64,000 nt of DNA from positions 248,001-312,000 of the forward strand of contig QHWB01000039.1 of the NCBI GenBank assembly GCA_003222395.1. Direction: 5' to 3'. How positions within the stretch are numbered: the first letter of the stretch is position 1; every line of letters begins with the position of its first letter. This document shows, one piece after another, positions 30,576 through 43,342 of this stretch. The position numbers and the translations under genes are program-made. The notes below the pieces were generated by a model, which saw only the letters and a program-made list of their open reading frames with translations, had not been told where the DNA came from and searched no databases. This DNA is from Acidobacteriota bacterium (GTDB taxonomy: Bacteria > Acidobacteriota > Vicinamibacteria > Vicinamibacterales > CAVVIG01).

Positions 30576-30593
30576 GGGCGACCAGCCCCTACC
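30571..30593. terminator. Bidirectional terminator hairpin
   Basis: A perfect 9-bp stem (GGTAGGGGC / GCCCCTACC) with a 5-nt loop lies between the convergent ends of the M16 peptidase gene (30575) and tyrA (30589). It overlaps both stop codons and is followed on the plus side by TTTTG. The U-tract is short, so termination strength is uncertain. Confidence 0.6.
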
Positions 30594-31590
30594 TTTTGAG
30601 CAACTCTCGCCAGCGCGCGGCGTCGGTGAAGATCTCGGTCAGCCGCTCGCCTTCGAAGAGATCGCGCCGCAGATCCTGAAGGATCGCGATCAGCGCATCG
30701 AGCGCGGGCCCGATCTGATCCGCGTTGGTGGCCGCGATATCCTTCCAGATATCCGCCGGGCTCGACGCCAGACGGGTCGTGTCGGCGAGCCCTCGTCCCG
30801 ACAGCCCGAGGCCGTCCTGCCCCACCGCATCGCCGACGACCTGCATCAGCGCGCTCGCGGTCAACTGCGGCAGGTGACTCAGGTACGCGAGCATCCGATC
30901 GTGCGTCTCGACGGTCATCGTCCTCGGCTCGGCGCCGAGGGCGCGGATGAATGCGAAAAGCCTTTCGAGCGCAGGGTCACTCGCCTGAAGGGCTCGCGCT
31001 ACAGGTCCCGCGCTCGCAGCAGTTGAGGCGTTTGCTGCAGGTGTGGCATGCGAAACAGATGCGTGAGGTCGCGCGAGGCTTTCAGCCGAGCGTGGCGACT
31101 GCGGGGTCAACAACCACGGCCGTCCTGCGAACAGATCCGGACGCGCGTGCTCGAGGCCGCCGCGCGCCGCGCCGGCGAGCGGGTGACCGCCCACGAACGT
31201 GAAGCGTGGCGGCAGCGATCGTGCGGCCGCGACGATTTCGCGCTTCGTGCTGCCGGTATCGGTGACGACCGCCGGCTGTCGCACGTACTCGTCGAGCTCG
31301 TCGAGCAGCGCGATGTTCTGCTTCACCGGGGCGGCGAGGATGACGATGTCGGCTTCGGCGAGGACGATCAGATCGTCGGCCGCGACGTCGATGGCATGCA
31401 TACGCATCGCCGTCTCGAGGACGTCCTTGTTGTCGACGGCGATGACGAGCGACGTCGGCCAGAGCTGGCGCGCCGCCTGGGCGATCGATCCGCCGATGAG
31501 ACCGAGGCCAACGATGCCGATCTTCTCGAAAATCGGCGGCTGCGTCTCGCGCGGCCGGCCCGGTTGTATGACGGGAAGTTCCATCGACAT
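30589..31590 (-). CDS. tyrA: Prephenate dehydrogenase
   Basis: 333 residues. It oxidatively decarboxylates prephenate to 4-hydroxyphenylpyruvate for tyrosine synthesis. The NAD-binding motif GIVGLGLIGGS (near residue 25), TDTGSTKREIV, the GGHPLAG substrate loop, and YLSHLPQLTASAL are present. No ACT domain is visible. Residues about 166-204 are not family sequence: they are the in-frame translation of a palindromic repeat (30980-31093) inserted between the WLLTP strand and the DPALERLFAF helix. ATG 31590 abuts an AT-rich repeat array and lacks a ribosome-binding site. It is the last gene of the aromatic operon. Confidence 0.92.
   Translation of the reverse strand: MSMELPVIQPGRPRETQPPIFEKIGIVGLGLIGGSIAQAARQLWPTSLVIAVDNKDVLETAMRMHAIDVAADDLIVLAEADIVILAAPVKQNIALLDELDEYVRQPAVVTDTGSTKREIVAAARSLPPRFTFVGGHPLAGAARGGLEHARPDLFAGRPWLLTPQSPRSAESLARPHASVSHATPAANASTAASAGPVARALQASDPALERLFAFIRALGAEPRTMTVETHDRMLAYLSHLPQLTASALMQVVGDAVGQDGLGLSGRGLADTTRLASSPADIWKDIAATNADQIGPALDALIAILQDLRRDLFEGERLTEIFTDAARWRELLKR
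30980..31093. repeat. Dispersed inverted-repeat element inserted in tyrA
   Basis: Ends CTCGCCTGAAGGGCTCGCGC and GCGCGAGGCTTTCAGCCGAG are reverse complements at 17 of 20 positions and match the arms at 25562-25635. The interior (about 70 bp) is unrelated to the other copies. The insertion is in frame and adds about 39 residues rich in Ala/Ser. Confidence 0.82.
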
Positions 31591-31696: not shown

Positions 31697-32743
31697 TCAG
31701 CTGCCCCACCCCCGCCGCTTCACCGGTTCGAGGCAGATGCTGCGGCCGATGGCCGGCGCGATGATGCGGAGCTCCGCCATCAGCCGGTCGAACTGCGACG
31801 GGAACAGCGACTGCGCGCCGTCGCTGAGCGCGTGATCGGGATCGCAGTGAACTTCGATGATCAGGCCGTCGGCGCCCGCGGCGACGGCCGCGCGCGCCAT
31901 CGGCACCACCATGTCGCGCCGTCCGGCGCCGTGGCTCGGGTCCGCGATGATCGGCAGGTGACTCAGCTTGCGCACGACGGGAATCGCCGAGATATCGAAC
32001 GTGTTGCGCGTCGCCGTCTCGAACGTGCGGATGCCGCGCTCGCACAGGATGACGTCGTTGTTGCCGCCGCTCAGCACGTACTCCGCCGACAGCAGCCACT
32101 CCTCGATCGTCGCCGAGATGCCGCGCTTGACGAGCACCGGCTTGCGCACGTGCCCGAGCTCGCGCAGCAGGGTGAAGTTCTGCATGTTGCGCGCGCCCAC
32201 CTGGAAGATGTCGGTGTAGCGGTTGATCAGCTCGATCTGGCTGACATCCATCACCTCGGTGATGAGCCTCATGTTTTCGGCGTTCGATGCGTCGCGAAGG
32301 AGCCGCAGCCCTTCCTCGCCGAGCCCCTGGAAGCTGTAAGGCGAGCTGCGCGGCTTGAATGCGCCGCCGCGGAAAATCTTCGCTCCGGCGCGGCGCGCCG
32401 CCGCCGCCGTCGTCCGCACCTGTTTTTCGTTTTCAGCCGAGCACGGACCGGCCATGACGATCACTTCGTCGCCGCCGATGCGGACGTCGCCGACCGTGAC
32501 GACCGTGCCCTGCGGCTTGAACGTCCGGCTCGCGAGCTTGTACGGCGACGAGATGCGCATCACCTCGTGGACGCCGTCGAGCATCTCGATGAGGCCAGGC
32601 TCCGGGTGTCCCGATCCGACGGCACCGAGCACCGTCCGCGTGACGCCGGTCGACCGGTGCACGTCCATCCCCATCTCGACGAGGCGCGCGACCACTTTTT
32701 CGATCTGCTCCTCGGTCGCCCGTTCTTCCATTACTACGACCAT
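31697..32743 (-). CDS. aroF: 3-deoxy-7-phosphoheptulonate (DAHP) synthase, type Iβ with ferredoxin-like domain
   Basis: 348 residues from ATG 32743, which has GGAGG 11 bp upstream (32755-32759). It condenses PEP and erythrose-4-phosphate, the first shikimate step. A short N-terminal ferredoxin-like domain ([21 protein letters not shown], to about residue 70) resembles the feedback-sensing domain of Thermotoga-type enzymes. The barrel has [33 protein letters not shown]-type [16 protein letters not shown], and [12 protein letters not shown]. It lies between chorismate mutase and tyrA in the operon. Confidence 0.94.
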
Positions 32744-32769
32744 GGCTTCTGTCGCCTCCACACGCATGT

Positions 32770-33099
32770 TCATCTTAACGGTTCGCCGGTCGGCGACGGT
32801 TGGGCGGCGCCGGGAACGGACTCCTCGCCGTGCACGATGCGCCGTTCGAGCCGCCGCGCCTCGTCGATGATTCGTTCGAACAACCGGGCGATCGCGTCCG
32901 GCCCGAGTGGTCCCTCGCACGCGACGCCGCGCACGTGCTCGAGCACCTGCTTCTCGCGATCGGGCTGATAGATCGGCACGCCCAGGTCTTTCTTCACCAG
33001 GCCGATTTCGACCGCCACGCGCGCGCGCTCGTTGAGCAGGCGCACGATGACTTCGTCGACGCGGTCGATGTCGTTCCTCAATTCATCAAGCGTGCGCAT
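32770..33099 (-). CDS. Chorismate mutase, AroQ type
   Basis: 109 residues. It rearranges chorismate to prephenate, feeding TyrA. The all-helical AroQ signature is visible: [53 protein letters not shown], with the catalytic Arg, Lys and Glu in order. A second helix pair ([17 protein letters not shown]) closes the active site. It overlaps the trpA end by 14 bp and precedes DAHP synthase by 26 bp. No prephenate dehydratase is fused to it or present in the window. Confidence 0.92.
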
Positions 33100-33886
33100 A
33101 GCTTTTCAACCACCGGACGTACTCCTCGACTTGCTCGATCAGCCTCGGCGAGCGGCCGTGCTCCGCGATGACCGAGACGAGCGCGCTGCCGACGACCGCG
33201 GCGTCGGCGTAGGCGCCGACTTCAGCGACGTGCTCGGGCCGCGAGATGCCGAACCCCAGGGCGATCGGCATCGACGTGTGCGCGCGGATCCGCCGCACCA
33301 GTGCGTCGGCGCCGGCGGCGACGCTGTCGCGCGCGCCGGTGACGCCAAGACGTGAAATGCCGTAAAGGAATCCGGTGCCGAGCTCCGCCGCCTTCCGGAT
33401 GCGTGCATCCGTCGTCGTCGGGCTCAGCAGGAAGATCGTGTCGAGTCCTTGGCCGGCCAGCGTTTCGCGGAATACGCCCGCCTCTTCTATCGGCAAATCG
33501 AGCGCCAGCACGCCGTCGACGCCGGCAGCGCTCGCCTGTTTCGCGAACGTTTCCACGCCGAGGCGCATGATCGGATTGGCGTAGCTGAACACCACGATCG
33601 GCGAGGCGATGTCGCGGCGGATGTCGCGGATGAGCGCGAGCGTCGCGCGCAGGTTGCTGCCCGCGGCGAGCGCGCGCTCGGCGGCACGCTGGATTACGGG
33701 TCCATCGGCGAGCGGATCGGAAAACGGCACGCCGATTTCGAGCACATCGGCGCCGGCGCGTTCGAGCGCGCGAAGGATCTCGGCCGAGCGCGGCAGATCG
33801 GGATCGCCGGCGGTCGTGAAGGTCACGAGGCCAGGGCGATGCTCGGCCTTCAGGCGCGCGAAGGTTCGGGCTATGAGCGAAGGCAT
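33086..33886 (-). CDS. trpA: Tryptophan synthase alpha chain
   Basis: 266 residues. It cleaves indole-3-glycerol phosphate to indole and passes it through the tunnel to TrpB. Visible are [12 protein letters not shown], the catalytic Glu in [17 protein letters not shown] with the catalytic Asp in the same motif, the FSYANPI strand, [22 protein letters not shown] and FGISRPEHV. It overlaps trpB by 16 bp and chorismate mutase by 14 bp. Confidence 0.96.
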
Positions 33887-35079
33887 TTTTGAACCGTGTT
33901 CACGTCCTTGTCGCCGCGGCCCGAGAGATTCACCAACACGATCTTCGACCGGCCCAGGTCCTTCGCAACCTTCATGGCGTGCGCGATCGCGTGGGCCGAT
34001 TCGAGGGCCGGCAGGATGCCTTCGAGGCGCGCCAGCGTCTGGAATGCCTCGACCGCTTCATCGTCAGTGACGTACGCGTACTCGGCGCGCCCTATCGCGC
34101 GCAGCCAGGCGTGCTCGGGACCGACCGCCGCATAATCGAGCCCGGCTGAGATCGAATGCGTCGGCTCGATGTTGCCGTCCTCGTCCTGGAGCACGAACGT
34201 CCGGGTTCCTTGCAGCACGCCGGTGCTGCCGCCGGCGAACCGTGCGGCATGGCGGCCGCGGACGATCCGCTCGCCTCCCGCTTCGACGCCGACGAGCCGC
34301 ACGTCACGATCGTCGACGAACGCGTCGAAGATGCCCATGGCGTTGCTGCCGCCACCGACGCAGGCGACAATCGCGTCGGGAAGCCGGCCGGCGAGCTCCA
34401 CGATCTGCGCGCGCGCTTCGCGGCCGATGATCGATTGAAATTCGCGCACCATCAGCGGATACGGATGCGGTCCGAGGACCGAGCCGAGAAGATAGTACGT
34501 GTCGCCGACATTCGTCACCCAGTCGCGCATCGCTTCGTTGATGGCGTCCTTCAGCGTACGGCTGCCGGCGTCGACGCCGCGGACTTCGGCGCCGAGCAGC
34601 TGCATCCGGAACACGTTGAGCGCCTGGCGCTCCATGTCGTCGGTGCCCATGTAGACATGGCACTCGAGGCCGAGGAGCGCGCACGCGGTCGCAGTGGCGA
34701 CGCCGTGCTGTCCCGCGCCGGTCTCTGCGACAATCCGCCGCTTGCCCATGCGCGAGGCGAGCAGCGCCTGGCCGAGCGCGTTGTTGATCTTGTGGGCGCC
34801 CGTGTGCGTCAGGTCTTCGCGCTTGAGAAAGATGCGCGCCCCGCCGGCACGCTCCTCCAGCCGGACGGTTTCGTACACAGGCGTCGGCCGTCCGACGTAC
34901 TGCTTCAGCAAGCGCGCGAGCTCGGCGCCGAACTGCGCGTCTTCCCGCGCGGCGAAATAGGCGCGTTCCAACTGCTCGACCGGCTCGACGAGTGTCTCGG
35001 GGACGAAGCGTCCACCGAATTCACCGAAGTAGCCGCGCGCGTCAGGATCGCGCCGGGATGTCAGTGTTGGTGATGGCAT
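33871..35079 (-). CDS. trpB: Tryptophan synthase beta chain
   Basis: 402 residues. The PLP enzyme joins indole to serine. [15 protein letters not shown] opens the family sequence. The Schiff-base Lys is in [14 protein letters not shown], and [12 protein letters not shown] and the phosphate loop [12 protein letters not shown] are present. C-terminal [18 protein letters not shown] and GRGDKD are standard for the main TrpB1 type. It overlaps trpF by 38 bp and trpA by 16 bp, consistent with coupled synthesis of the synthase subunits. Confidence 0.97.
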
Positions 35080-35674
35080 GGAGTTGATCGAACAGTGCGC
35101 GAAGGCGCGCGGGATCTTTTACGCCGGGCGCCTCTTCAACGCCCGACGAGACATCGATGCCGAACGGACGCACGCGCGCGACCGCTTCTGCGACGTTTTC
35201 CGGCGTCAAACCGCCGGCGAGGATCGTCTTCCTGCGCGCGGCAATCGCCGCCGCCAGGCGCCAGTCGATCGTCCGGCCGGTGCCGCCGCGCCGATCGGGA
35301 TCGTGAGCGTCGAGCAGCAGCGTGACCGACGCAGGCCACACGCTCGCCGGGTCCGTGTCGTCCGACAACGCGACAGCTTTCACGATCGGACGATGAAGCT
35401 GGACGAGCGACTCGGGCTTTTCGTCGCCGTGCAGCTGGATCGCGCCGAGGCGGACCAGGCTCGCGACGCCGTTCACGTACTCGGCCGCCTGATTCACGAA
35501 CAGACCGACGGCCGTCACGAACGGCGGCAGCGCCGACACAATCGACCGCGCGCGATACGGATCGACGAAGCGCGGGCTGTTCGGCCAGAACACGAGGCCG
35601 ATCGCGTCCGCGCCGGCCTCGACGGCCGCTTCGGCGTCCTGGATCCGCGTGATACCGCAAATCTTGATCAGCAC
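35042..35674 (-). CDS. trpF: Phosphoribosylanthranilate isomerase
   Basis: 210 residues starting at GTG 35674, preceded by AAGAAG. It isomerises phosphoribosylanthranilate to CdRP. KICGITR with the catalytic Cys, [47 protein letters not shown] and [14 protein letters not shown] (catalytic Asp) are visible. It is separated from trpC by 175 bp, the only sizeable gap in the operon apart from the arrays; that gap contains the structured repeat. Confidence 0.95.
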
Positions 35675-35849: not shown

Positions 35850-36653
35850 TCACTTCGCCTGCTCGATTAACTCTCGTAACGCGATGCCGGGGTCATCGGC
35901 CGTCATGAATCGTTCCCCGATCAGAAACGCACGGTAGCCGAGCGCACGGAGGCGCTGCAGATCGTCCGCGGTCCGCAGACCGCTCTCGCTCACGGCTATC
36001 ACGTCCTTCGGCACACGCGCGATGAGCGTGTCCGACGCATGCACGTCGACCTCGAGCGTGCGCAGATTCCGGTTGTTGACGCCGATGATGCGGGCGCCGA
36101 TCGACAGCGCCCGATCGAGCTCCACGGCATCGTGCGCCTCGACCAGGACTTCGAGCTCCAGCGCGGCCGCCAACCCGTGCAGCTCGCTCAACCGCGCGAT
36201 GTCGAGCGCCGCCACGATGAGCAGCACCGCATCGGCGCCCGCCGCGCGCGCCTCGAGCAGTTGATACTCCGACACGATGAAGTCCTTGCGCAGCAGCGGC
36301 ACGCCGACCGCGGCTCGAACGGCTTCGAGGTGCTCGAGCGCACCGTCGAAAAACGTCGGCTCCGTCAGCACCGAGATCGCCGCAGCGCCGGCGGCCGCAT
36401 AGCCCGCCGCGATCGCCGCGGGATCGTAGCTGGCGCGCAGCACGCCCCGCGACGGCGCCCGGCGTTTGCACTCGGCGATCACGTTCACGCGATCGGTCCG
36501 GCTCAACGCCGCCGTCAGTCGCCCCGCGCGGGGCCGCCGCGTCAACGCGCGCCGCTCGAGCTCCGCGCGCGGCTCGCGCTGTTCACGCACCTCGACGATC
36601 CGCCGCGTGCCGGCGACGATCGTCGCGAGCAGATCGGCCGTTGTCTGGGTCAC
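35850..36653 (-). CDS. trpC: Indole-3-glycerol phosphate synthase
   Basis: 267 residues. It closes the indole ring by decarboxylative cyclisation of CdRP. Visible are IAECKRRAPSRGVL (catalytic Lys), ISVLTEPTFFDG, LLRKDFIVSEYQ, ADAVLLIVAAL, LVEAHDAVEL, GVNNRNLRTLEVD and VSESGLRTADDL. The ATG overlaps the trpD stop by 4 bp (ATGA). It is a separate gene, not fused to trpF as in enterics. Confidence 0.96.
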   Translation of the reverse strand: MTQTTADLLATIVAGTRRIVEVREQREPRAELERRALTRRPRAGRLTAALSRTDRVNVIAECKRRAPSRGVLRASYDPAAIAAGYAAAGAAAISVLTEPTFFDGALEHLEAVRAAVGVPLLRKDFIVSEYQLLEARAAGADAVLLIVAALDIARLSELHGLAAALELEVLVEAHDAVELDRALSIGARIIGVNNRNLRTLEVDVHASDTLIARVPKDVIAVSESGLRTADDLQRLRALGYRAFLIGERFMTADDPGIALRELIEQAK

Positions 36654-37690
36654 GCCGTGGCTCCCGGTGCAAATTCTTCGGCCGTCGAGATCGCAATCAT
36701 GTGGTCCAGCGTCCGCCTGGCGTCGCCGCGATCGATGGCGCGCGACCCCATCGCGATCCCGTGCTCGACCGACGGCGCCGCGCCGGCGATGAAGAGCGCC
36801 GCGCCGGCGTTCAGCAGCACGATGTCGCGCGCCGGACCGCGCTCGCCCGCGAGAACGCGTTCGGCGATCCGCGCGTTCTCGTGCGCATCGCCGCCAACGA
36901 GCGCCTGTGGCGCCGCCTTGGGCAGGCCGACGTCCGCCGGGTGGAGATAGAACGTGTTGACCGTGCCGTCACAGCACTCCGAGATTTTCGTATAGCCGGT
37001 GGTCGTGATTTCGTCGATGCCGTCGGCGCCGTGGACGACCCACGCGCGCTTCGAGCCGAGCATCAGGAGCGCACGCGCCATCAGCTCGGTCAGCTCGGGA
37101 CGCGGGACGCCGACGATCTGCCGCGTCGCACCGGCCGGGTTCGTGAGCGGTCCGAGCAGATTGAACGCGGTCCGCACGGCGAGCTCCTTGCGCACCGGCG
37201 CTGCATGGCGCATCGACGGGTGAAACGTCTGCGCGAAGAAGAAGCCGATGCCGGCCTCGGCGAGGCTGCGCTCGACGACCGCCGGCGGCGCGGTGACGCG
37301 GATGCCGAGTGCCTCGTACACATCCGCGCCGCCCGCCTTGCTCGACGCGGATCGGTTGCCGTGCTTGGCCACGCGGACGCCGCACGCCGCGATGACGAGC
37401 GCCGCACACGAAGAAATATTGAACGTGCCCGCGCGGTCGCCGCCGGTGCCGCAGTTGTCGAATACATCGTCGTAGCGCCGCGCGACCTGCACGGCGTGTG
37501 TGCGCATCGCGCGCGCCAGCCCGACGATCTCCGCCGGACGCTCCCCCTTCATCACGAGGCCGATCAGCAGTCCGGCGATGTGCGCCGGCGCTGCGCGTCC
37601 TTCCATGATTTCCGTCATCGCCGACGCGGCTTCGTCCACCGTGAGATCTTCGTGGCGCGTCAGCTTCTCGATGAGTGGTTGAAACGTCAC
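36650..37690 (-). CDS. trpD: Anthranilate phosphoribosyltransferase
   Basis: 346 residues. It transfers phosphoribose from PRPP to anthranilate. The N-terminal helical domain (LIEKLTRHEDLTVDEAASAMTEIM) is followed by the PRPP loop DNCGTGGDRAGTFNISS, VAKHGNRSASSKAGGADVYEALG, FFAQTFHPSMRHAAPVRKEL and LGPLTNPAG. It overlaps trpG and trpC by 4 bp each. It is a stand-alone gene (no glutaminase fusion). Confidence 0.96.
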   Translation of the reverse strand: MTFQPLIEKLTRHEDLTVDEAASAMTEIMEGRAAPAHIAGLLIGLVMKGERPAEIVGLARAMRTHAVQVARRYDDVFDNCGTGGDRAGTFNISSCAALVIAACGVRVAKHGNRSASSKAGGADVYEALGIRVTAPPAVVERSLAEAGIGFFFAQTFHPSMRHAAPVRKELAVRTAFNLLGPLTNPAGATRQIVGVPRPELTELMARALLMLGSKRAWVVHGADGIDEITTTGYTKISECCDGTVNTFYLHPADVGLPKAAPQALVGGDAHENARIAERVLAGERGPARDIVLLNAGAALFIAGAAPSVEHGIAMGSRAIDRGDARRTLDHMIAISTAEEFAPGATA

Positions 37691-38268
37691 GACAGGGTGT
37701 CCTCGAGAAAATTCCGCAGAATGCGGCGCCCTTCGCCCGTCAGGATCGATTCGGGATGAAACTGCACGCCGTGCACCGGCCAGGCGCGATGACGCAGTCC
37801 CATCACGACGCCGTCTTCGCGCGTCCGCGCGGACACCTCGAGCGCCTCCGGCATCGTCGTGCCCTCGACCACGAGCGAGTGATAACGCGAGGCCACGAAG
37901 GGGCCGTTGATGCCGCTGAACACGCCGCGGCCGTCGTGCTCGATCGTCGACGTCTTGCCATGCATCGGAACCCCGGCGCGAACCACCTGGCCGCCAAACA
38001 CCGCGCCGATCGCCTGATGGCCCAGGCAGACGCCGAGAATCGGCGTCGTCCGGCCCAGCTCCCGGATCACCTGCATCGTGACCCCTGCCTGCTCCGGCCT
38101 TCCCGGACCGGGTGAGATGACGATGCGCGACGGCTTCGCCGCCGCGACTTCCTCGAGCGTGACGGCATCGTTGCGCATCACCTTGATGTCGGCACCCAGC
38201 TCGCCCAGGTACTGAACGAGGTTGTAGGTGAACGAGTCGTAGTTATCGATGACGAGGATCATCGCCAT
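37687..38268 (-). CDS. trpG: Anthranilate synthase glutamine amidotransferase
   Basis: 193 residues (or 191 from a second ATG at 38262). It supplies ammonia from glutamine to TrpE; possibly shared with aminodeoxychorismate synthase. ILVIDNYDSFTYNLVQYL, the oxyanion motif ISPGPGRPEQAG, the nucleophile Cys in GVCLGHQAIG, and His-Glu in GVQFHPESILT are present. The start codon directly abuts the AT-rich repeat array (38269-38359), leaving no recognisable ribosome-binding site. Confidence 0.95.
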   Translation of the reverse strand: MAMILVIDNYDSFTYNLVQYLGELGADIKVMRNDAVTLEEVAAAKPSRIVISPGPGRPEQAGVTMQVIRELGRTTPILGVCLGHQAIGAVFGGQVVRAGVPMHGKTSTIEHDGRGVFSGINGPFVASRYHSLVVEGTTMPEALEVSARTREDGVVMGLRHRAWPVHGVQFHPESILTGEGRRILRNFLEDTLS

Positions 38269-38359: not shown

Positions 38360-39832
38360 TTAGAGACCTTCCTGTGCAAGTTCCAGCGCTCTCACGAGCG
38401 CCCGCGCCTTGTCGCGCGTTTCTTCGTACTCCGCGGCCGGGTTCGAATCCATCACGATGCCTGCGCCGGCCTGCACGTACGCGCGGCCGCGCGACATGAT
38501 CACCGTCCGAATGGCGATGCAGAAGTCGAGGTTTCCCGCGAAATCGAGGTAGCCGACGGCGCCGGCATACAGGCCGCGTCCCGAAGGCTCGAGCTCCTTG
38601 ATGATCTGCATGGCGCGCACCTTGGGCGCGCCCGATACCGTCCCGGCGGGAAAGCACGACACGAGCGCATCCAGCCGATCGCGATCGTCGGCCAGCTTCC
38701 CTTCCACGATAGAGGTCAGGTGCATGACGTGCGAGAAGCGCTCCAGCCCCATGAACTGCGGCACGCGGACCGATCCGTATTCACAGACGCGGCCGACGTC
38801 GTTGCGCCCGAGGTCGACGAGCATCACGTGCTCGGCGCGCTCCTTTTCGTTGCGCTTGAGCTCTTCGGCCAGCCGCATGTCTTCTTCGTCGCTGCGTCCG
38901 CGCGGCCGCGTCCCCGCAATCGGATGCGTCTCGACCCGCGAACCTTCGACGCGCACGAGCATCTCAGGCGACGAGCCGACCACCGACACGCCGCCCATTC
39001 GGATGAAATACATGTACGGCGACGGGTTCACGTGGCGCAGCGCGCGGTAAACGGTGAATGGATCGGCGGCTACGTCGGCCTCGAACCGCTGCGACAGCAC
39101 GACCTGATAGATGTCGCCCGCGGCGATGTACTCCTTGGCCGTGCGCACCTGCTCTTCGAACTTCTCGCGCGTGTGATTCGACGTGATCTCGAGGCCGTTC
39201 GACGAGTCGCGCTCGGTTTTCGACAGGTTGCGTTCCAGCTCGCGCTCGAGGAACTGAATCTTCGCGCACGCGAACTGATACAGCGACTCGAGATCGTCGT
39301 CCGCGGTGATCCGCGCATTGGCGATGATCAGGATCCGGTGCTGCACGTGGTCGAACGCGAGGACGGTGTCGAACAGCATGAACCCGGCCTGATCCGATCC
39401 GTCGACGCCGGCGCCGAGATCGCCGAGCACCGGCTCGAACCACGAGGCGGCGCCGTAGCCAAGGTAGCCGACCGCGCCGCCGGTGAAGCGCGGCAGACCC
39501 GGTACGAACGGCGATCGGAAATCGGCCATCAACCGACGCAGCGTCTCGATGAACGGTCGATCGCCCGCGCTCGTCTCGCCGCCGCGCTCGATGGTCGTCT
39601 TCCCGTCGCGCGCGCGCAGAATCAGGAACGGATCCTTGCCGAGGAACGAATAGCGGCCCACGTGCTCGCCGCCCTCCACGCTCTCGAGCAGGAACGCGTA
39701 GTCCGCGTGTTCGGCGATCTTCAGGAACGCCGACACCGGCGTCAGCAGGTCCGCGACGATCTCCTTGCAGACCGGCACGAACGTGCCGCGCCGCGCCAGC
39801 TCCTTGAAGGTCTCAAACGACGTAATCTTCAT
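38360..39832 (-). CDS. trpE: Anthranilate synthase component I
   Basis: 490 residues from ATG 39832 (a TTG three codons earlier is less likely). It converts chorismate and ammonia to anthranilate. The C-terminal chorismate-binding domain has GDIYQVVLSQRFEADV, PSPYMYFIRMGGVSVVGSSPEMLVRVE, PIAGTRPRGR, LVDLGRNDVGRV and FPAGTVSGAPKVRAMQIIKELE. The start lies inside the end of aroDE (20-bp overlap), so trpE and aroDE are coupled. Confidence 0.96.
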   Translation of the reverse strand: MKITSFETFKELARRGTFVPVCKEIVADLLTPVSAFLKIAEHADYAFLLESVEGGEHVGRYSFLGKDPFLILRARDGKTTIERGGETSAGDRPFIETLRRLMADFRSPFVPGLPRFTGGAVGYLGYGAASWFEPVLGDLGAGVDGSDQAGFMLFDTVLAFDHVQHRILIIANARITADDDLESLYQFACAKIQFLERELERNLSKTERDSSNGLEITSNHTREKFEEQVRTAKEYIAAGDIYQVVLSQRFEADVAADPFTVYRALRHVNPSPYMYFIRMGGVSVVGSSPEMLVRVEGSRVETHPIAGTRPRGRSDEEDMRLAEELKRNEKERAEHVMLVDLGRNDVGRVCEYGSVRVPQFMGLERFSHVMHLTSIVEGKLADDRDRLDALVSCFPAGTVSGAPKVRAMQIIKELEPSGRGLYAGAVGYLDFAGNLDFCIAIRTVIMSRGRAYVQAGAGIVMDSNPAAEYEETRDKARALVRALELAQEGL

Positions 39833-41285
39833 CGCGCGCAAACTCCGCCAGCCGCTTCAGCGCGGCCTCACGCATCACGCCGGTCGGGGGCTTCGTGCCC
39901 GTCCACCAGAGAGACTGCTCGCGCGCCTGCGCGACGAGCATCTCCAGACCGCCAATCGTCTGACATCCAGCTTCTGCCGCCTCGCGCAGCAGCCGCGTGA
40001 CGGGCGGGTTGTACACCAGGTCGTACACGTAGCGTCCGGTCAGCTGCGTCCGCGGAATCGGCGTCTCGTCGACGCGCGGATACATGCCGATCGGCGTCGT
40101 GTTCACGAGCAGATCCCAGCTGCCGGGCTCGGGCGGCCACGCGCCGGTCTCTCCCGACGCGACGAGCGCCACCTGTCCGGCCTGCGCGCGGTTGCGCGCG
40201 TGGACCTGGACGGCGCAGCCGACCGATGCGAGCGCCACGCCGACCGCCCGCGCCGCGCCGCCTGCGCCGAGCACCGAGGCGCGCAGCCCGTTCAACGCCG
40301 CGCGTCCTCTGATCGGTTGCAGAAACCCTTCGGCATCGGTGTTGGCGCCGATCCAGCGCCCCTTTTCGACGTGGATCGTGTTGATGGCGCCAATCCGCCG
40401 CGCGACCGCGTCGATCTCGTCGACGCGATCGAAGAGCGACACCTTGTGCGGAATCGTGACGCTGGCGCCCTTGACGCCAATCGCGCGGCCGAACGTCACG
40501 AAATCGTCGGCGCTGGTCGCAGGGAACGGCACGTACACCGCATCGGTCCGCGTCTCGCGAAACGCCGCGTTGTGCATCGACGGCGACACCGAATGCGCGA
40601 CCGATCCGGCGACGATGCCGTAGATGTCCGTCGACTTGCCTATAGACCGGAATCGATACTCTTCCAGAAGCGCATCGGCGGTCAGCTGCCCGATGTCGTG
40701 AATGGCGCCTGCGTAGGTCCACGCCGATCCGAACCGCGATGCGAGGATTCGCGTCGGCAAGCCGTACTGCCCCATGCCGATGACGATGATTCGATCGGCG
40801 CGTCCGACCTGGACGCCAAGCTCGAGCAACGGTACGCAATCCGACAACTGCTTCGCCGTGACCGCAATCTTCACGACCTCCGCGCCCGTGGATCGCATGG
40901 CCTGCGCCTGTGCCGCGAGATCGGTCGGCACGCCGTCGAAGTCGTGCGTCGACAGCACGATGCGTTGTCCTCCTGACGCCGCGATGAGATCGTCGAAACG
41001 CGCGCGCCATTCGACATCGACGTATTCGGCGCCAAGCTTCAGCGCATCGGCGAGGATGCGCCGACGCTCCTCTTCCGAGCCCGCGAAGCTGCCGCCCTCC
41101 CACTTCGGCCGGCAGGTCACGATGGCCGGGCGCCCGCGTCCGGCGAGCGCTGCCGCGGCGCTCGGATCCGCAACCGAATCGAGGCGCAGTTCGACGAGAT
41201 CGGCATCGGTGACCGCATCGCGCTTGCGGCGCAGCTCGGCCGTCGTGGCACCGGTGACCGTCACGCAGAGGAGCGGCTTCGTCAT
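39813..41285 (-). CDS. aroDE: Bifunctional 3-dehydroquinate dehydratase / shikimate dehydrogenase
   Basis: 490 residues, a fusion of two shikimate enzymes. Residues about 1-220 are a type I dehydroquinase: LVELRLDSVAD, the catalytic His in VLSTHDFDG, the Schiff-base Lys in EVVKIAVTAKQ, and GMGQYGLPTRILASRFGSAWTYA. Residues about 225-490 are AroE: GSVAHSVSPSMHNAAF, the catalytic Lys in VTIPHKVSLF, the NADP loop LGAGGAARAV, VNTTPIGMYP and DLVYNPPVTRLL. The same order is known in plants and some bacteria. It is the first structural gene after the trp attenuator. ATG 41285 lies 5 bp after the terminator U-tract. Confidence 0.94.
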   Translation of the reverse strand: MTKPLLCVTVTGATTAELRRKRDAVTDADLVELRLDSVADPSAAAALAGRGRPAIVTCRPKWEGGSFAGSEEERRRILADALKLGAEYVDVEWRARFDDLIAASGGQRIVLSTHDFDGVPTDLAAQAQAMRSTGAEVVKIAVTAKQLSDCVPLLELGVQVGRADRIIVIGMGQYGLPTRILASRFGSAWTYAGAIHDIGQLTADALLEEYRFRSIGKSTDIYGIVAGSVAHSVSPSMHNAAFRETRTDAVYVPFPATSADDFVTFGRAIGVKGASVTIPHKVSLFDRVDEIDAVARRIGAINTIHVEKGRWIGANTDAEGFLQPIRGRAALNGLRASVLGAGGAARAVGVALASVGCAVQVHARNRAQAGQVALVASGETGAWPPEPGSWDLLVNTTPIGMYPRVDETPIPRTQLTGRYVYDLVYNPPVTRLLREAAEAGCQTIGGLEMLVAQAREQSLWWTGTKPPTGVMREAALKRLAEFARDEDYVV

Positions 41286-41297
41286 TACCAAATAAAA

Positions 41298-41329
41298 AAG
41301 CCCCTTCAACCGGCAGGCTGAAGAGGCTT
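41298..41329 (-). terminator. trp attenuator terminator
   Basis: On the minus strand AAGCCTCTTCA (41329-41319) pairs with TGAAGGGGCTT (41308-41298), giving 11 pairs including one G-U, with a 10-nt loop. A run of six T followed by ATTT continues to 41290. The upstream half also contains region 3 of the antiterminator: GCCTCTTCAG at 41327-41318 is perfectly complementary to CTGAAGAGGC at 41381-41372. Confidence 0.9.
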
Positions 41330-41355
41330 GGGATTTCCCTTTCTTGGAGAATAGG

Positions 41356-41436
41356 TCAGGCCAAGGCGGACGCCTCTTCAGTCGGGCTCCAGTACCGCCA
41401 CCATGTCGACACGAGGCTAAACGACCTGCGACCCAT
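41356..41436 (-). CDS. trpL: trp operon leader peptide
   Basis: A 26-residue peptide from ATG 41436 to TGA 41358-41356. Residues 12-16 are WWRYW, giving three Trp codons in five in a short peptide that otherwise has none. Just 3' of the Trp codons lies CTGAAGAGGC (region 2), which can pair either with upstream leader sequence (GGAGCC with GGC-TCC; GGCGG with CCGCC) or with region 3 of the terminator. Ribosome stalling at residues 12-13 would leave region 2 free and favour antitermination. No ribosome-binding site is visible, and the predicted 5' end is only a few bases upstream, so translation is probably leaderless. Confidence 0.92.
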   Translation of the reverse strand: MGRRSFSLVSTWWRYWSPTEEASALA

Positions 41437-41447
41437 CGGAAGACGGC

Positions 41448-41477
41448 ACGATAGCAGACCAAGTCGAGCACTGTCAA
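41448..41477 (-). promoter_or_regulatory. Promoter of the aromatic amino-acid operon
   Basis: On the minus strand TTGACA (41477-41472), an 18-bp spacer, then TATCGT (41453-41448). Transcription would start near 41441, about five bases before the trpL ATG. It is arranged back-to-back with the plus-strand TATAAT of the S55-like gene (41480-41485), so the two promoters nearly touch. Confidence 0.75.
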
Positions 41478-41497: not shown

Positions 41498-43342
41498 ATG
41501 CTACGTCTTTGGTTTGCGGTGCTGCTGTGTCTCCTGCTTGCGACATCTCTGCGTGGAGCCGCTCCCCAGATGAGCGTCGGCGAAATCCGTCCCGGCATGG
41601 TCGGCGTCGGCCGGACGGTTTTCGACGGTACCCACGTCGAGGAGTTCAAGGTCCACATTCTCGGCGTGCTCGAAAACGTGATCGGCCCGCGCCGGAATCT
41701 CATTCTGGCCAGACTCGAAGGCGGACCGCTCGCAAATACGGGCGTCATCGCTGGCATGAGCGGGAGTCCCGTCTACGTCGACGACCGTCTGATCGGCGCC
41801 GTTTCCTACGCGCTCGGCAGCTTCTCGAAAGAGCCGATTGCCGGCATCACGCCGATCGCCGAGATGACCGACTCGACTTCCTTCGGCAACACGCTGCGGC
41901 CGGCCGCGGCGCGGGTGCACGTCGACTTTCCGTTGACGCGGGAGAACCTGACGGCAGCGTTCCGCAAGGCGCTGAACTGGAATCGGCCCTTTGCGGAGCG
42001 GCCCGACGATGCGCAGCTCGCGGGGCTGAACGCGGTGAACGGTCTCGCCTCCGGTCAGCTCGCAACGCTGCTTCGTCCCATCGCGACGCCGCTCGCGATG
42101 TCCGGCTGGGAGCCGGATGTCGCGGATCTCTTCGGTTCGGCATTTCAGGATCAAGGATTCATCCCGACGGGCGGCAGTGCGGCGGCGCTGCGCGACGGCG
42201 AAAAGCCGTTCGAAGGACCGCTGAAGCCGGGTGACGCCGTCGGCGTCATGCTCGTCAGCGGCGACCTCCAGCTTGGCGGGACCGGGACGGTGACGCACAT
42301 CGACGGCGATCGCGTCTACGCGTTCGGCCATCCGATGTACAACCTCGGGCCGACCGAATATCCGATGACGCGCGCCTACGTCTACACGGTTCTCCCGAGC
42401 CTGTTCTCGTCGATGAAGTTGTCGAGCACCGGCCAGATCATCGGCACGTTCCTGCAGGATCGCGCGACGGCCATAGCCGGCAAGCTCGGTCCCGGTCCGC
42501 ACATGATCCCGCTGTCGCTGACGCTCGAGTCGCGCCACGCCGAGAAGCATACGTTCCATTTCGGTATCGTCAACGACCAGCTGTTCGGGCCGCTGATGAC
42601 GTACGCGACGATTCTGAACTCGCTCGGATCGTACGAGCGGCAGTACGGCGCGATGACGTTCTCGGTGCGAGGATCGGCGACGGTCAAGAAGCACGACGCG
42701 ATTACGTTCAACAACGTCTTCTCCGGCGATCAGGCGCCGGTCGCGGCGGCTGCGTATGTCGTCGCGCCGGTGACGTACCTGATGGGCAACGATTACGAGA
42801 AGGTGGACGTCGAGAGCGTCGACGTCACGGTCAGCGCGTCGGAGGAGCCGAAGACCGCGACGCTCGAGCGCGCGTGGGTCGACGATCCGCGGCCGCGTCC
42901 GGGCCGCAGCGTTCCTCTCAAGGTGCTGCTCCGCACGTACCGCGGCGATCAGGAAATCCGGACGGTTCCGATCGATATTCCGGCGAACGCGAGCGGCGCG
43001 CTGTCGATTCTGGTGTCGGACGGCACGCGCCTCGGTCAGACGGAACAGCGCGAGATGCGTCTGCCGCAGCCGCGCAGCGTCGATCAGATGATCAAGGCGC
43101 TCAACAAGGCGCGCCGCAGCAATACGCTCTACGTCAAGCTGCTCGGCTCCGAGGCCGGCGCCATCGTCAACGGCGAGACGCTGTCGTCGCTGCCGCCGTC
43201 GGTCCTCGGCGTGCTGGAGGGCGACCGCAACGGCGGCAACTTCAACCCGTTGCACAGCGCCACGCTCGGCGAGTGGGAAATCGCGACCGAGCACGCCGTC
43301 AACGGCTCGCGCACGCTGACCATCTCGGTGTCGCAGAACTGA
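41498..43342 (+). CDS. SpoIVB/S55-like secreted serine peptidase domain protein
   Basis: 614 residues with a signal peptide (RLWFAVLLCLLLATSLRGAA). The region IRPGMVGVGRTVFDGT...GVIAGMSGSPVYVDDRLIGAVSYALGSFSKEPIAGITPI matches the S55 (SpoIVB) core, with the catalytic Ser in GMSGSP; VYAFGHPMYNLG lies further on. The C-terminal half is beta-rich and of unknown role. S55 is best known from sporulation, but similar proteins occur in non-sporulating diderms. It is followed by a secreted beta-propeller gene, with a repeat array between them. Confidence 0.8.
   Translation: MLRLWFAVLLCLLLATSLRGAAPQMSVGEIRPGMVGVGRTVFDGTHVEEFKVHILGVLENVIGPRRNLILARLEGGPLANTGVIAGMSGSPVYVDDRLIGAVSYALGSFSKEPIAGITPIAEMTDSTSFGNTLRPAAARVHVDFPLTRENLTAAFRKALNWNRPFAERPDDAQLAGLNAVNGLASGQLATLLRPIATPLAMSGWEPDVADLFGSAFQDQGFIPTGGSAAALRDGEKPFEGPLKPGDAVGVMLVSGDLQLGGTGTVTHIDGDRVYAFGHPMYNLGPTEYPMTRAYVYTVLPSLFSSMKLSSTGQIIGTFLQDRATAIAGKLGPGPHMIPLSLTLESRHAEKHTFHFGIVNDQLFGPLMTYATILNSLGSYERQYGAMTFSVRGSATVKKHDAITFNNVFSGDQAPVAAAAYVVAPVTYLMGNDYEKVDVESVDVTVSASEEPKTATLERAWVDDPRPRPGRSVPLKVLLRTYRGDQEIRTVPIDIPANASGALSILVSDGTRLGQTEQREMRLPQPRSVDQMIKALNKARRSNTLYVKLLGSEAGAIVNGETLSSLPPSVLGVLEGDRNGGNFNPLHSATLGEWEIATEHAVNGSRTLTISVSQN

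Follow-up and report, generated by a model that had tools for sequence, protein, structure and literature searches.

Ribosome-mediated transcription attenuation is a textbook mechanism, and in the Escherichia coli trp leader region 2 follows the stop codon of the leader open reading frame (ORF). The locus described here resembles the trp attenuator of E. coli and other enteric bacteria (RF00513) in having consecutive Trp codons in a short ORF, mutually exclusive antiterminator and terminator helices, a T-run, and trp genes downstream. However, region 2 is here a part of the ORF, no conserved region 1 was found, the ORF appears nearly leaderless, a Tyr codon stands among the Trp codons, and the operon starts with aroDE and extends to DAHP synthase and tyrA genes, with no TrpR found. 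In Sinorhizobium meliloti, a 14-amino-acid leader peptide precedes trpE(G), one of three trp operons, and the trpLE(G) transcript begins at the leader ATG (PMC7298713). That leader also has Trp codons and a terminator, whereas the present locus has one ten-gene operon headed by aroDE. The classical trp attenuators of Corynebacterium and Streptomyces share with it double or triple Trp codons and a conserved complementary triple common to the antiterminator and the terminator; the core is gGCC-rGCy-GGCC there (PMC1262725) and CTGAAGAGGC-GCCTCTTCAG-GAAGAGGC here, and the first gene differs. For the Acidobacteria, a 2010 survey found that almost none of the predicted attenuators had associated functions (PMC2965389), and our literature search, which covered sources other than subscription journals, returned general surveys only and no description of a trp attenuator in Acidobacteriota. 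Therefore, while the mechanism is known, the Vicinamibacterales-wide family reported here is apparently undescribed, and its Trp/Tyr and His-type variants are possibly more novel than the element first noticed.

We analyzed a 64,000-nt stretch of DNA from a soil Acidobacteriota genome (the window), in which the earlier note had proposed a ribosome-mediated trp attenuator with all its parts in the right order before aroDE. Comparison with relatives supports the attenuator and the order of its parts, but no conserved region 1 was found and the regulated operon is wider. A classical ribosome-mediated transcription attenuator very probably controls the entire aroDE-trpEGDCFBA-DAHP synthase-tyrA operon. 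It would represent an order-wide, covariation-supported family serving aromatic amino acid synthesis in a dominant, hard-to-cultivate soil phylum.

Parts of the leader and the operon downstream

All features of the locus are on the minus strand. The first gene, aroDE, encodes a fused type I 3-dehydroquinate dehydratase/shikimate dehydrogenase (39813..41285; Pfam DHquinase_I, Shikimate_dh_N, and SDH_C, and NCBIfam) and has an alternative TTG start at 41291. It is followed by trpE (38360..39841; Pfam), trpG (37687..38268; Pfam GATase, position, and homology in relatives), trpD (36650..37690; Pfam), trpC (35850..36653; Pfam IGPS), trpF (35042..35674; NCBIfam NF002298), trpB (33871..35079; TIGR00263), and trpA (33086..33886; TIGR00262), and then by genes for DAHP synthase (31697..32770, start approximate; NF006421 and TIGR01361) and a tyrA-like prephenate dehydrogenase (30589..31560, start approximate; NCBIfam prephenate dehydrogenase models, E to 1e-48). 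The same ten-gene order was common, by tblastn, to relatives of families f1, f2, f4, f5, f10, and f14, some of whose contigs end early. The switch would therefore govern an aromatic supra-operon, to which both the entry reaction of the shikimate pathway and the Tyr branch belong.

The promoter that had been read as TTGACA/TATCGT is present, on the minus strand (41448..41477), as a -35 TTGACA, an 18-nt spacer, and an extended -10 TgcTATCGT. A motif scan with shuffles found one such site in 1 kb compared to 0.1 expected. A TTGAC-N17/18-TANNNT site occupies the corresponding position in 77 of 84 leaders, and the promoter is also visible in an alignment of 23 family members. The leader peptide ORF that follows, MGRRSFSLVSTWWRYWSPTEEASALA (41356..41436), has 26 codons and a TGA, as the earlier note had claimed, and homologous ORFs occur in the relatives; it runs from ATG 41436 to TGA 41356, with GTG 41412 as an alternative start. 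Residues 12 to 16 are WWRYW, again as claimed, and codon enrichment and the spacing to region 2 mark these codons, Trp12-Trp13-Arg14-Tyr15-Trp16 (41389..41403), as the putative regulatory ones. The ATG sits 11 nt past the -10 element, and across the 84 leaders the first in-frame start codon typically lies 9 to 16 nt (median, ∼12 nt) past it. Most leader ORFs would thus be nearly leaderless if transcription begins 6 to 8 nt past the -10 element. The predicted leader RNA is ∼145 nt long, with a fold z-score of -2.3. A separate conserved block, GAAGTGCTTGCTGGTCAAGGAGAAATGGGC, is found just 5′ of the -35 element in L004, L009, L012, L017, and other leaders and is absent from the window. On the opposite strand it reads TTGACC-N17-TATAAC, and it is probably the promoter of an S55-peptidase-like gene transcribed divergently (window positions 41498-43342), but conservation of the spacer and flank exceeds what a promoter requires.

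The antiterminator 5′ arm, region 2 (CTGAAGAGGC, 41372..41381), is formed by Thr-Glu-Glu-Ala codons of the leader ORF. Read as 41381-41372, it is the exact 10-bp complement of 41327-41318 (GCCTCTTCAG), the pairing that had been described. The latter segment is part of region 3, the terminator 5′ arm (AAGCCTCTTCAGCC, 41316..41329; stem scan and covariation), and so serves both helices. Region 4, the terminator 3′ arm (GGTTGAAGGGGCTT, 41298..41311), has its pairing conserved in relatives, and the T-run of the intrinsic terminator (TTTTTTATTT, 41290..41299) was recognized from the sequence and by a terminator scan. The order is AAGCCTCTTCAGCC-TGCC-GGTTGAAGGGGCTT-TTTT and then ATG 41285 of aroDE. 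The terminator stem and T-run named in the earlier note are thus present, but the stem, the single terminator-like site in the scan, has 14 pairs counting G-U (41329-41316 with 41311-41298) rather than 11 bp. The note had also given region 2 an alternative partner overlapping the Trp codons. This did not hold: the predicted partner is the promoter-proximal GCCGUCUUC, most of which lies upstream of the likely transcription start. Across the 84 leaders, region 1:2 pairing is favored slightly at best (mean z, -0.5; 9.5% at p<0.05), and no conserved region 1 hairpin to synchronize polymerase and ribosome was found.

In the window, the purine run of region 4 (41298-41311) is the only Shine-Dalgarno-like sequence seen before the aroDE start at 41285, and in many relatives (e.g., L003, L006, L008, and L013) a GAAGAGG or GAAGGGG arm is the sole such sequence near the aroDE start. 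Because the terminator 3′ arm is the only Shine-Dalgarno-like sequence nearby, the hairpin may also block translation, so that control would be combined, with this arm doubling as the aroDE ribosome-binding sequence. In about one-third of 51 relatives, an in-frame ATG lies 5 to 9 nt past the stem with no other Shine-Dalgarno-like sequence between, and the window has its aroDE ATG 12 nt and an in-frame TTG 6 nt past the stem. However, the aroDE start is at least 20 nt downstream in many other relatives, and blocking of this kind therefore cannot be a general mechanism. We consider combined control rather unlikely.

Conservation and covariation of the two helices

Sixty relatives were sampled, among them contigs named Acidobacteria gp6 and Vicinamibacterales (metagenome-assembled genomes [MAGs]), names that agree with the Acidobacteriota lineage suggested earlier from the sequence. 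An aroDE match was found in 56 of them, from 15 families. When 500 nt upstream of aroDE were read, nearly all of the 56 had a short Trp-rich ORF and a terminator. The Trp clusters varied (WWRYW, WRWYW, WWYW, WWWYR, WWWWC, WYWYW, WWWFFYF, WFWFIYF, and others), and the terminator core, GCCTCTTCAG, was nearly invariant throughout the order. Aligning relatives and looking for covariation, the first checks that the earlier note had proposed, thus showed the Trp codons, the alternative pairing, and the terminator all kept, with compensatory changes in both helices. A chance origin is excluded because the element is conserved in relatives.

Pairing was quantified in a sequence alignment of 47 leaders, which avoids the problem that, where region 2 is located by its complementarity, its pairing percentage is partly set by construction. 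The terminator was paired in 97.4% of cells, compared to 32 to 65% when the arms were slid, and no shuffle reached 97.4%; eight of its 14 pairs had changed on both sides. For the antiterminator, 91.9% of cells were paired (38 to 56% in slid controls) and 11 cells had changed on both sides. Examples are the arm pairs CTGGAGAGGC/GCCTCTCCAG (L029), GCCGAGGGGGCG/CGCCCCTTCGGC (L048), and TTGAAGAGGC/GCCTCTTCAA (L009). These compensatory changes indicate that both helices, although mutually exclusive, retain their pairing. The leaders come from G+C-rich MAGs with contig breaks, and their relatedness inflates such counts.

A covariance model of the element matched 90 of 96 genomes of the family and the order Vicinamibacterales and 93 of 119 in the class sample. 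Three of the matches were outside the order, and one of these (G075) is a His-type leader. At comparable model strength, the element was essentially absent from the rest of the phylum sample. Assembly gaps may account for missing cases, since two of the six genomes of the order with no model match also had no aroDE match. Weak matches in other classes were inspected singly and set aside: some are real attenuators of other genes, some are terminators only, and some are unrelated.

Predicted switching and other modes of control

The positions of the codons relative to region 2 are regular. First, the first Trp codon mostly ends 16 to 22 nt before region 2 in the 84 leaders, and the last Trp or Tyr codon ends ∼7 to 12 nt before it; in the window, Trp12, Trp13, Tyr15, and Trp16 are 19, 16, 10, and 7 nt upstream, respectively. 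Second, region 2 usually lies within the ORF, and the stop codon is mostly 7 to 14 nt past its end. An exception is family f5, where the stop codon is upstream of region 2. Third, in a fold test with the ribosome edge set 11 nt past the A-site codon, a ribosome placed at the first Trp codon left RNA that was predicted to fold as the antiterminator when polymerase had just finished region 3, and one placed at the stop codon left RNA predicted to fold as the terminator, each in 84 of 84 leaders. Judging from the spacing, the response should depend on Trp12 and Trp13, because a ribosome stalled at Trp16 already covers part of region 2. Finally, for the full leader at equilibrium, the terminator is favored even with region 2 free (-35.7 kcal/mol with the terminator). 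Since the terminator is the more stable fold once region 4 has been made, the decision must be kinetic, and this is the expected behavior of attenuators.

The sequence parts, their conservation and covariation, and the spacing suggest the following course of events. RNA polymerase would start ∼5 nt before the leader ATG (near 41441), and a ribosome would load onto the nearly leaderless ORF. With charged tRNA-Trp in short supply, the ribosome would wait at Trp12/Trp13, ∼16 to 19 nt short of region 2, leaving region 2 free to pair with the emerging region 3; the terminator would be blocked and the operon transcribed. When Trp is plentiful, the ribosome would traverse region 2 to the stop codon 13 nt beyond and cover it, regions 3 and 4 would form the terminator, and transcription would end ∼13 nt before aroDE. 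Four features expected of this class are found, namely, codons for the product amino acid in a short ORF between promoter and first gene, an intrinsic terminator, a covarying antiterminator, and a placement of the codons and the stop by which the position of the ribosome would decide whether region 2 is free.

Other modes of control were weighed against this one. An intrinsic terminator can by itself reduce expression and a protein regulator could act at the promoter, so that the terminator might be constitutive or under a TRAP- or TrpR-like protein, the Trp-rich ORF being incidental or encoding a functional small protein. Yet the Trp codons, region 2, and the stop codon keep a fixed spacing over ∼15 families while other residues of the peptide vary, and regions 2 and 3 show compensatory changes. 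Model searches of the genome revealed no recognizable TrpR, which was matched in control genomes, and no TRAP (PF02081), for which the Bacillus subtilis control was matched. These observations make a constitutive or protein-controlled terminator very improbable. Leaders that sense a tRNA or a ligand, such as the T-box, also switch between alternative terminator and antiterminator helices, but the genome has no match to the T-box model (RF00230; control genomes matched), no Rfam family scored meaningfully in the leader, where permissive thresholds gave chance-level matches only, and the leader is just ∼145 nt long and contains a conserved ORF with Trp codons. A sensor of that kind is exceedingly improbable. 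The Rfam Trp_leader model (RF00513), another check that had been suggested, matched E. coli but neither the window region nor the whole genome; the element is therefore not a member of that sequence family, though predicted to work similarly. Finally, the terminated leader RNA or the peptide might act in trans as well, like rnTrpL and peTrpL of S. meliloti, whose ORF is leaderless (PMC7298713); the near invariance of the GCCTCTTCAG core in the order and the apparently near-leaderless ORF would fit such a role. However, the triple use of regions 2, 3, and 4 already accounts for the slow change of the core, and the peptide varies outside the Trp zone. We regard an additional trans role as improbable.

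Putatively sensed amino acids and His-type leaders

In the control zone, defined as the six codons from the first Trp in the 84 leaders, Trp makes up 48% of the codons. Tyr makes up 14.7%, compared to 3.3% in the 15 preceding codons and 1.8% in aroDE, and occurs in the zone of 65 of the 84 leaders; p-values for this enrichment are overstated, the leaders being related. Co-sensing of Tyr by the attenuator is plausible because tyrA is in the operon. With a Tyr codon (Phe in some families) beside the Trp codons, a shortage of another aromatic amino acid may also relieve termination. Alternatively, a constraint of the RNA on UGGUAUUGG may account for the Tyr codons. They pose a directly testable question of mixed sensing. 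The Tyr codons of the control zone are TAT and TAC at 49:25, compared to 52:163 in aroDE of the same genomes, where TAC is preferred.

Related leaders carry His codons. The genome itself keeps his genes in an operon of their own, hisI-hisG-hisD, on a different contig (hisI and hisG were identified by reading the sequence). Ahead of it stands a candidate His attenuator (L176:6169-6356, contig C34) with a TTGACA-18-TACCCT promoter, the leader MFRVRHRARHHHRHLAAERA, and a GC-rich terminator with a T-run. In family f17, which belongs to another order of the same class, the genes after aroDE are first his and then trp, and the leaders before aroDE carry His codons (VHHHRYHA, FHYHWHP, FHRYHRT, FFHFRYHP, and VHHHRHHS). 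Their terminator arms, GCCTCTTCAGG/CCTGAAGAGGC, are close to the core in the window. A model of this leader was confined to f17 among 396 genomes, bar weak matches. Since the genome's own his operon and the sister-order aroDE-his-trp operons have His leaders, leader codons match operon content. A broader reading, quite conceivable though somewhat doubtful, is that the leader senses more than one amino acid and its codons track operon content, the sensed amino acid having switched with gain or loss of his genes. The Vicinamibacterales leader would then read Trp and Tyr (Trp, Phe, and Tyr in one family), and the sister-order leader before aroDE-his-trp would read His with Phe and Tyr. Such leaders offer a natural comparative series for studying how the amino acid sensed by an attenuator shifts along with its operon.

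Several further leaders were seen. The sister-order His-type leaders lie upstream of aroDE in aroDE-his-trp operons at L133, L134, L135, L136, L137, L139, L140, L142, and L159. Past the stop codon they have GGGTTTCCTGGAGG, a candidate antiterminator whose changes are matched in region 3. The conserved Trp of their RRWR motif was considered as a sensor codon and rejected, because RNA pairing to the stop-codon region accounts for it. In two other classes, leaders before aroDE-his-trp mix Trp and His codons (L160 of f32, GWWGFVHHHVE; L161 of f56, SWWAHGHGKG), and both, having no convincing T-run terminator, are leads only. Trp leaders were also seen in other parts of the phylum, before trpB-like genes (L118 and L120) and before aroD (L119), and an Ile/Leu/Val leader, ILLLLVLVLVLV, precedes an ilvE-like gene (L123), the genes being named from sequence. 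With leaders of several kinds, amino acid attenuation appears to be in wide use in Acidobacteriota, the leader codons fitting the operon downstream.
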